Shown here one piece after another: positions 38,065-40,012 of a stretch of 64,000 nucleotides of DNA; within the stretch, counting starts at the first letter, position 1, and each line of letters begins with the position of its first letter. The stretch spans positions 62,001-126,000 of the forward strand of contig NZ_CP049056.1 of NCBI RefSeq assembly GCF_011044155.1, given 5' to 3'. The position numbers and the translations under genes were made by a program. The notes under the pieces were generated by a model. The model worked only from the letters and a program-made list of their open reading frames with translations, made no database searches and was not told where the DNA came from. Source of the DNA: Pikeienuella piscinae. Lineage in GTDB: Bacteria; Pseudomonadota; Alphaproteobacteria; Rhodobacterales; Rhodobacteraceae.

Positions 38065-38484
38065 ATGTCCGCCATGATCTCCCATCGCTCGGTGGTCGAT
38101 CCGGTCGATTGAGACTTTCTCGGCCACATGGACGTTTCGAGTTGCTTCGCCGCCTGTCCGGACGGCGTGTTCGCGATCCAGTCAGAAATGGGTCTTACCG
38201 GCAACGACATGCGAATGGGCCGCCGGTTGTCCTTCGCCGTCGTGCACGTTGAGAGCGACTTCGAGGCCGAATTCGTCGCGGGAGACACGATACGGCTTGA
38301 GACTTCGGTTGCAGCGGTCGGTGCGAAGTCGATGACGTTCAGGCATCGGCTGATCCGGTGCGAGGGCGACGCGCTGGCGTTCGAGACGGTGTTCAACTGC
38401 GCGATGCTGAGCCTGGACGCCTGCCAGGCCGCGGCGATACCCGATGATGCGCGCGAAAGGGCGACGACCTGGCTGGAGACCTGA
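38065..38484 (+). pseudogene. hotdog-fold thioesterase with in-frame TGA
   Basis: The frame opens at ATG 38065, preceded by GGGAGA, and reads RSVVDPVD-stop-DFLGHMDVSS, then on to 38484 without another stop. In 4HBT thioesterases of this type the block is usually VxPxDCDxxGHMN, so the TGA at 38110-38112 replaces a normally conserved Cys. The downstream part (FVAGDTIRLETSVAAVGAKSMTFRHRL and the end) is an intact hotdog domain. Either this is a recent nonsense mutation, the product starts at ATG 38128, or TGA is read through as selenocysteine. I favour the first because I see no convincing SECIS hairpin just after the TGA. Confidence 0.65.
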
Positions 38485-38571: not shown

Positions 38572-38870
38572 TCAGGGCCGCGCCGCGGGCGCCCAATAGC
38601 ACCGCCGGACGCCGAGTTGGGCCAGCGCGAGACCGGCGAGGATCAGCGCCAGCGCCGACCTGACGAGCGGCGGCAGGCTCTCTCCCAGAAAGACGACGCC
38701 GAGCACCGTCGGTCAGGGCGACGCCTGATCGTTGACCGAGGGGATCGACCTGCCCGGCGCGCACGAGCGCGACGCCATTCAGAGCATGGCGCCGAGACAG
38801 GCGGTGAGGCGAACGAAGGCCCGGAGGCCAGGCGCGCCCGCGCTCAAGGCGCGGACCCGAGCGCGGATGC
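38572..38870 (-). pseudogene. remnant of an EamA/DMT-family transporter
   Basis: Minus-strand reading gives VALVRAGQVDPL, then a frameshift into VNDQASP, a stop and VLGVVFLGESLPPLVRSALALILAGLALAQLG, ending at a stop at 38572. This is the last two helices of an EamA metabolite exporter, including the FLGE motif that begins the final pair. Only about the last 90 residues remain, with at least one frameshift and one nonsense codon. The N-terminal part is missing and its place is taken by the end of the class V aminotransferase gene. Confidence 0.65.
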
Positions 38871-38872
38871 GC

Positions 38873-40012
38873 TCAAAGTTCGCTCGCGAGCGCCTCGACC
38901 AGTCGGTCGCAATCCTCTTCGTCGTTCCAGAGATGCGGCGTGACGCGGAGCGCGCCGCCGCGTTCGGAAAGATAGACCTGCTTCGCCGCCAGACGGGCGA
39001 GCAGATCCTTTGGCGCGCCGACGGGCAGGCCGGCGGAGAGATAATGCGGCCCGCGCGCCACGTCAGGCGTCGGGGAGAGCCCGAGCGCGGCGATGCGTTT
39101 CGAAAGCCCGGCTGCGCGGGCGGCGAGCGTCTCCTCGATATTGGCGACGCCCCAGGCCGTCAGTTGCTCCAGAGCGGCGATCAGGCCGGGAAGGAGAGCG
39201 AAATTCGCGCGTTCCCCCATGTCGAAGCGCAGCGCGCCAGGCTCGTATTCGTCAGTGTATTCCACCAGGCCGGCGAAATTCCGGCTGTCCTTGCGCGTGA
39301 TCCAGCCTTCCTCCAGCGGTGCGCCGTCGCGCCGCTCGGGGGCGACGTAGAGAAACCCTGTCGCATAGGGGCCGAGCAGCCACTTGTAAGCGGCGGCGGT
39401 CGCGAAATCCGGCCGGATGGCGGCGAAATCCGTCACCATCGCCCCGGCCGACTGCGTGAGGTCGAGAACCAGCGCGGCGCCGGTTTCGTCGCAGCGCCTG
39501 CGGACCGCGGCGAGATCGATGCGCGCGCCCGTGGTCCAGAGGACATTGGGGAGCGCGGCGACGGCGCAGCGCTCGTCGATAGCGGTGAGAACCGCCGCCG
39601 TCGCGTCTTCGCCCGGCGGCGCGGCGACGGCGAACACTTCGGCGCCGGTTTCCACCGCCCTGCGACGCCAAGGGTAGACGTGGCTCGGGAACTGGTCCTT
39701 CAGCAGGACGACGCGGCGGCCGGGGGCGAGGGGGATGTTTCGCGCCGCGCTCTCGATCCCATAGCTCGCCGAGGGCGCAAGCGCGACGCCGGCGGCGTCC
39801 GCGTTCACCAGACCGGCGAAGAGCGCGCGGGCGCGGTCCGGCGCGTCGTAGAAGTCGGGAATCGTCAGATCCCACGGCCGGGCCTTCATCCGTGCGCCGC
39901 GGTCGATCGCGGCCACGGCTGCGTGGCTTAGCGGCGACATGTACGCGGTGTTGAGATAGGCGACGTCGCGCGGAATATCGAATAGCGCGCGCTGGCAGGG
40001 GATAATCGACAT
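38873..40012 (-). CDS. PLP-dependent class V aminotransferase
   Basis: This 379-residue enzyme belongs to the fold-type I, class V group (cysteine desulfurase/isopenicillin epimerase-like). YLNTAYMSPLS starts it, and LVLDLTQSAGAMVTD supplies the PLP-binding aspartate. AAYKWLLGPYATGFLYV carries the Schiff-base lysine, and WITRKDSRNFAGL with ALRFDMGERANFALL follows. No cysteine loop of the desulfurase type is visible, so a desulfurase role is unlikely. Neighbours give no pathway. Start ATG 40012 gives family length. Confidence 0.8.
   Translation of the reverse strand: MSIIPCQRALFDIPRDVAYLNTAYMSPLSHAAVAAIDRGARMKARPWDLTIPDFYDAPDRARALFAGLVNADAAGVALAPSASYGIESAARNIPLAPGRRVVLLKDQFPSHVYPWRRRAVETGAEVFAVAAPPGEDATAAVLTAIDERCAVAALPNVLWTTGARIDLAAVRRRCDETGAALVLDLTQSAGAMVTDFAAIRPDFATAAAYKWLLGPYATGFLYVAPERRDGAPLEEGWITRKDSRNFAGLVEYTDEYEPGALRFDMGERANFALLPGLIAALEQLTAWGVANIEETLAARAAGLSKRIAALGLSPTPDVARGPHYLSAGLPVGAPKDLLARLAAKQVYLSERGGALRVTPHLWNDEEDCDRLVEALASEL

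Follow-up and report, generated by a model that had tools for sequence, protein, structure and literature searches.

In bacterial selenoproteins that have Cys homologues, TGA takes the place of a Cys codon and is decoded as selenocysteine (Sec) via SelA, SelB, tRNA-Sec and a SECIS hairpin. In bacterial point-nonsense pseudogenes, a single stop interrupts a frame that once was open. Both invite comparison with a reading frame of Pikeienuella piscinae, found in a 64,000-nucleotide stretch of contig NZ_CP049056.1 (positions 62,001 to 126,000; hereafter, the window), in which a TGA stands at the position of a conserved Cys of a hotdog-fold thioesterase. The closest described proteins are those of a 4HBT_2 (PF13279) subfamily of Roseobacteraceae (Ruegeria, Roseovarius, Shimia and Sulfitobacter) and some other Proteobacteria, which the window frame resembles in sequence and length. 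These relatives carry a D-C-D-F-L-G-H-M-N stretch, which we take to have an active-site role in hotdog enzymes, whereas the window frame has a stop at the Cys and GHMD in place of GHMN.

The frame shares with bacterial selenoproteins the exchange of a Cys codon for TGA; unlike them, it lies in a genome in which SelA, SelB and tRNA-Sec were not found, and neither Rfam nor plain folding revealed a SECIS hairpin at the TGA. With bacterial point-nonsense pseudogenes, it has in common the single in-frame stop, the changed conserved residues and a decayed neighbour, and no difference from them was seen. We conclude that the frame is very probably a nonsense pseudogene of an accessory hotdog thioesterase, which supports the reading that the original prediction had favoured.

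The interrupted frame and its relatives

The thioesterase-like frame (38065–38484, plus strand), delimited by ORF translation, Pfam and homologue alignment, begins with an ATG at 38065, immediately 5′ of which lies the purine-rich GGGAGAATGGA, and ends with a terminal TGA at 38482–38484. If read through, it would give 139 residues, and its sole internal stop is the TGA at codon 16 (38110–38112, plus strand). The read-through product matches Pfam 4HBT_2 with 42.5 bits against a curated cut-off of 25.5, and its two NCBIfam matches each fall below their own cut-off. The original prediction had described the frame as intact on either side of the TGA; this is borne out by the 39 distinct relatives that are 50% or more identical, all of which align on both sides of the stop, showing that the homologous frame runs on past it.

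The identity of codon 16 was then compared across the family. Sixty-seven thioesterase loci were collected (L001, L002 and L019–L083), of which 65 aligned over codon 16 at an E-value of 1e-4 (all except L002 and L080); 58 of these are distinct, including the window's own. Among the 57 distinct relatives, codon 16 is TGC in 36, TGT in 16, CAC in two, and CAT, AGC and ATC in one each, so that the residue is Cys in 52, as had been expected for homologues at this place, and His (three), Ser (one) or Ile (one) in the others. The 39 relatives of at least 50% identity have TGC (24), TGT (14) or AGC (1). TGA occurs at codon 16 in none of the 57, and thus, judging from these alignments, it most likely arose within the window lineage. 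A single base separates TGC, and also TGT, from TGA. Cys codons are therefore among the few that permit a one-step change to TGA, and it is not much of a coincidence when a stop falls on a Cys.

Single nonsense codons recur in this thioesterase family, as two of the 57 relatives have one in-frame TAA, namely L027 (5001–5414, a Halieaceae metagenome assembly) at position 112 and L037 (5001–5405, Shimia abyssi) at position 47. Among 68 weaker matches, stops inside the match were seen in two (one with a TAG, the other with two TGA), neither of which spans codon 16. In a Ruegeria arenilitoris locus (L054, 5001–5410), the tblastn match falls into two pieces, residues 1–54 and 54–137, which may reflect a frameshift.

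The distribution of the gene is patchy. Its nearest relatives, with up to 75% identity, are found in Roseobacteraceae, other Alphaproteobacteria and the one Halieaceae metagenome assembly, and 13 of the 393 further family genomes carry a match with 50% identity or more. The genus is represented by three other genomes, of which two lack a match and the third, which is 66% complete, has one of 29% identity at best. A tblastn search of plasmids returned six records, every one at 27–32% identity. The thioesterase thus appears to be accessory, either gained by the Pikeienuella piscinae lineage or lost from its sister lineages.

Conserved residues, selection and the neighbourhood

Near-invariant positions were defined as those with 95% or higher conservation among the 39 closer relatives, which gave 43 positions. 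The window departs at seven of them, i.e., at the TGA itself and through N23D, Y27C, S32P, K111N, V113A and R120C. Among the 39 relatives, 22 show no departure, ten show one, four show two, and one, the TAA-bearing L027, shows four; the remaining two, L065 and L066, show five departures each at conserved sites and are both free of a stop. In a tree with 36 relatives, the end branch of the window measures 0.45, the median for end branches being 0.11; two other rows have longer branches than the window, and the placement of the window is poorly supported.

Rates of change were compared with 15 relatives; this comparison and the tree both rest on 47 of the 65 loci, excluding minus-strand matches. 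The pairwise medians of the window are 0.169 for pN and 0.734 for pS, and at the level of sequence divergence this low pN relative to pS shows past purifying selection on the window thioesterase. Its median pN is only mildly raised over the 0.131 found among the 15 relatives and is not an outlier, with L030 above it at 0.183 and L029 at 0.160. A frame that is otherwise intact and bears the mark of past purifying selection suggests that any decay would be young, or else that a partial product may be made. The original prediction had called the nonsense mutation recent, and this wording holds only insofar as the frame has neither an indel nor a second stop.

The surroundings of the frame also show change. 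Downstream, at 38602–38779 on the minus strand, lies what is probably left of an EamA transporter gene, corresponding to its C-terminal portion, interrupted by a stop and a frame change, and recognised from a DNA match together with a weak protein match. As DNA, the match covers 38617–38744 (71.9% identity over 128 bases, E 2e-14); as protein, it is weak (E 0.05–0.07) and contains a stop. Beyond it lies a class-V aminotransferase gene (38873–40012). In the two more complete of the other genomes of the genus, G002 and G003, the same aminotransferase gene is followed directly by a complete EamA gene (Pfam EamA), and the thioesterase was not found in the stretches of these genomes that were read. 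Upstream of the thioesterase, the window has gcrA. In G002, gcrA lies well within a different contig from the aminotransferase gene and has another gene after it, which shows that they do not adjoin each other in that genome; the gcrA of G003 lies 2.4 kb from the end of its contig. With EamA reduced here, and gcrA and the aminotransferase gene apart in G002, the gene order indicates that the site of the thioesterase has undergone rearrangement between these species of the genus.

Taken together, the TGA, the Cys of the relatives, the lack of Sec machinery (see below), the departures at conserved residues and the decayed neighbour lead us to read the frame as a nonsense pseudogene. The TGA at a near-universal Cys codon would stop translation at 15 residues, and the window frame would yield no active thioesterase. 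For annotation, 38065–38484 should be marked as a pseudogene, and the finding has little significance beyond that.

Two rival explanations leave selenocysteine aside. A single-base sequencing or assembly error, with the gene intact in the living strain, would be consistent with the single-base difference between TGA and the codons found in most relatives, and with the intact remainder of the frame. However, the assembly consists of a single contig (4,373,045 bases) with a stated completeness of 100%, and the six further changes at near-invariant residues are in keeping with a gene that was already losing function, so that we consider such an error very improbable. A product made in spite of the stop, either by a restart at the ATG at 38128 or through a leaky stop, is more doubtful still. 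An open frame of 118 amino acids does run from that ATG, codon 22 of the read-through frame, to the terminator (38128–38484, plus strand), and low levels of thioesterase, either working or truncated, would then be made. However, the restart product would be missing the N-terminal strand together with the greater part of the D-C-D-F-L-G-H-M-N stretch, and the only purine run 5′ of 38128 is GAGA at a distance of 13 bases, as against the purine-rich run directly 5′ of 38065.

Selenocysteine machinery and SECIS search

The preference for a nonsense mutation over selenocysteine rests on the machinery of the genome as well as on the Cys codons of the relatives, and here the original prediction, which had named selA, selB and selC as the genes to look for, was followed up in the complete genome. 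No profile match to SelA was found. The SelA model scored over its cut-off in three of 120 family genomes and gave six more weak matches, which indicates that the search is capable of finding SelA; among 14 control genomes, four match, including E. coli, and one is over the cut-off. SelB gave nine matches in the genome, none over the cut-off and all within model positions 1–268 of 581, the two best of which read, by eye, as EF-Tu. The C-terminal domain of SelB (PF09107, SelB-wing_3) has no match in this genome, and E. coli is the only control that matches it. The single SelD match, inside an open frame of 778 residues, scores 31.5 bits against a cut-off of 125.

For tRNA-Sec (UCA anticodon), scoring covered 150 of the 680 first-look candidates, and all 14 reported matches lie below the gathering score; ARAGORN assigns these 14 to ordinary tRNAs for Ser, Leu, Tyr, Gly, Cys, Lys, Trp, Glu, Asn or Arg. 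Neither selA nor selB, nor selC among the candidates scored, was thus found in the genome, which counts against selenocysteine. In a recent paper on selenoprotein prediction (PMC12013277), an organism is taken to use Sec if it has SelB, or SelA together with SelD; by this rule, the genome of Pikeienuella piscinae is not a Sec-using one.

The search for a SECIS element agrees with the original prediction, in which no clear hairpin had been seen. Rfam gave no match in the whole window at the gathering score, nor in 38065–38300 up to an E-value of 10. The hairpin predicted for the 66 bases 38105–38170 folds no better than chance, with 132 of 200 shuffled sequences folding equally well or better (z 0.44). 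This assessment consists of Rfam and plain folding, a whole-genome SECIS_1 search having been set aside since it was positive in no control genome.

Although the TGA falls exactly at the Cys position and homologous sequence flanks it, its decoding as selenocysteine is rejected as hardly credible, since every test of the machinery speaks against it, since none of the 57 relatives has TGA at this codon, and since the replacement of Cys by Ser, Ile or His in five of them does not suggest a redox-active Cys. Both observations that the original prediction had named as telling against selenocysteine, a genome without the machinery and relatives that have a Cys codon where this strain alone has TGA, were thus made. 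The locus is in this respect a clean example of a Cys-to-TGA coincidence that resembles a selenoprotein and is resolved once the machinery and the relatives are examined.

We also note that a genome-wide reassignment of TGA is not proposed here, because the thioesterase gene itself terminates at a TGA near the stops of its relatives; in the six relatives whose nearby ends were looked at, the stop is TGA in four and TAG in two.
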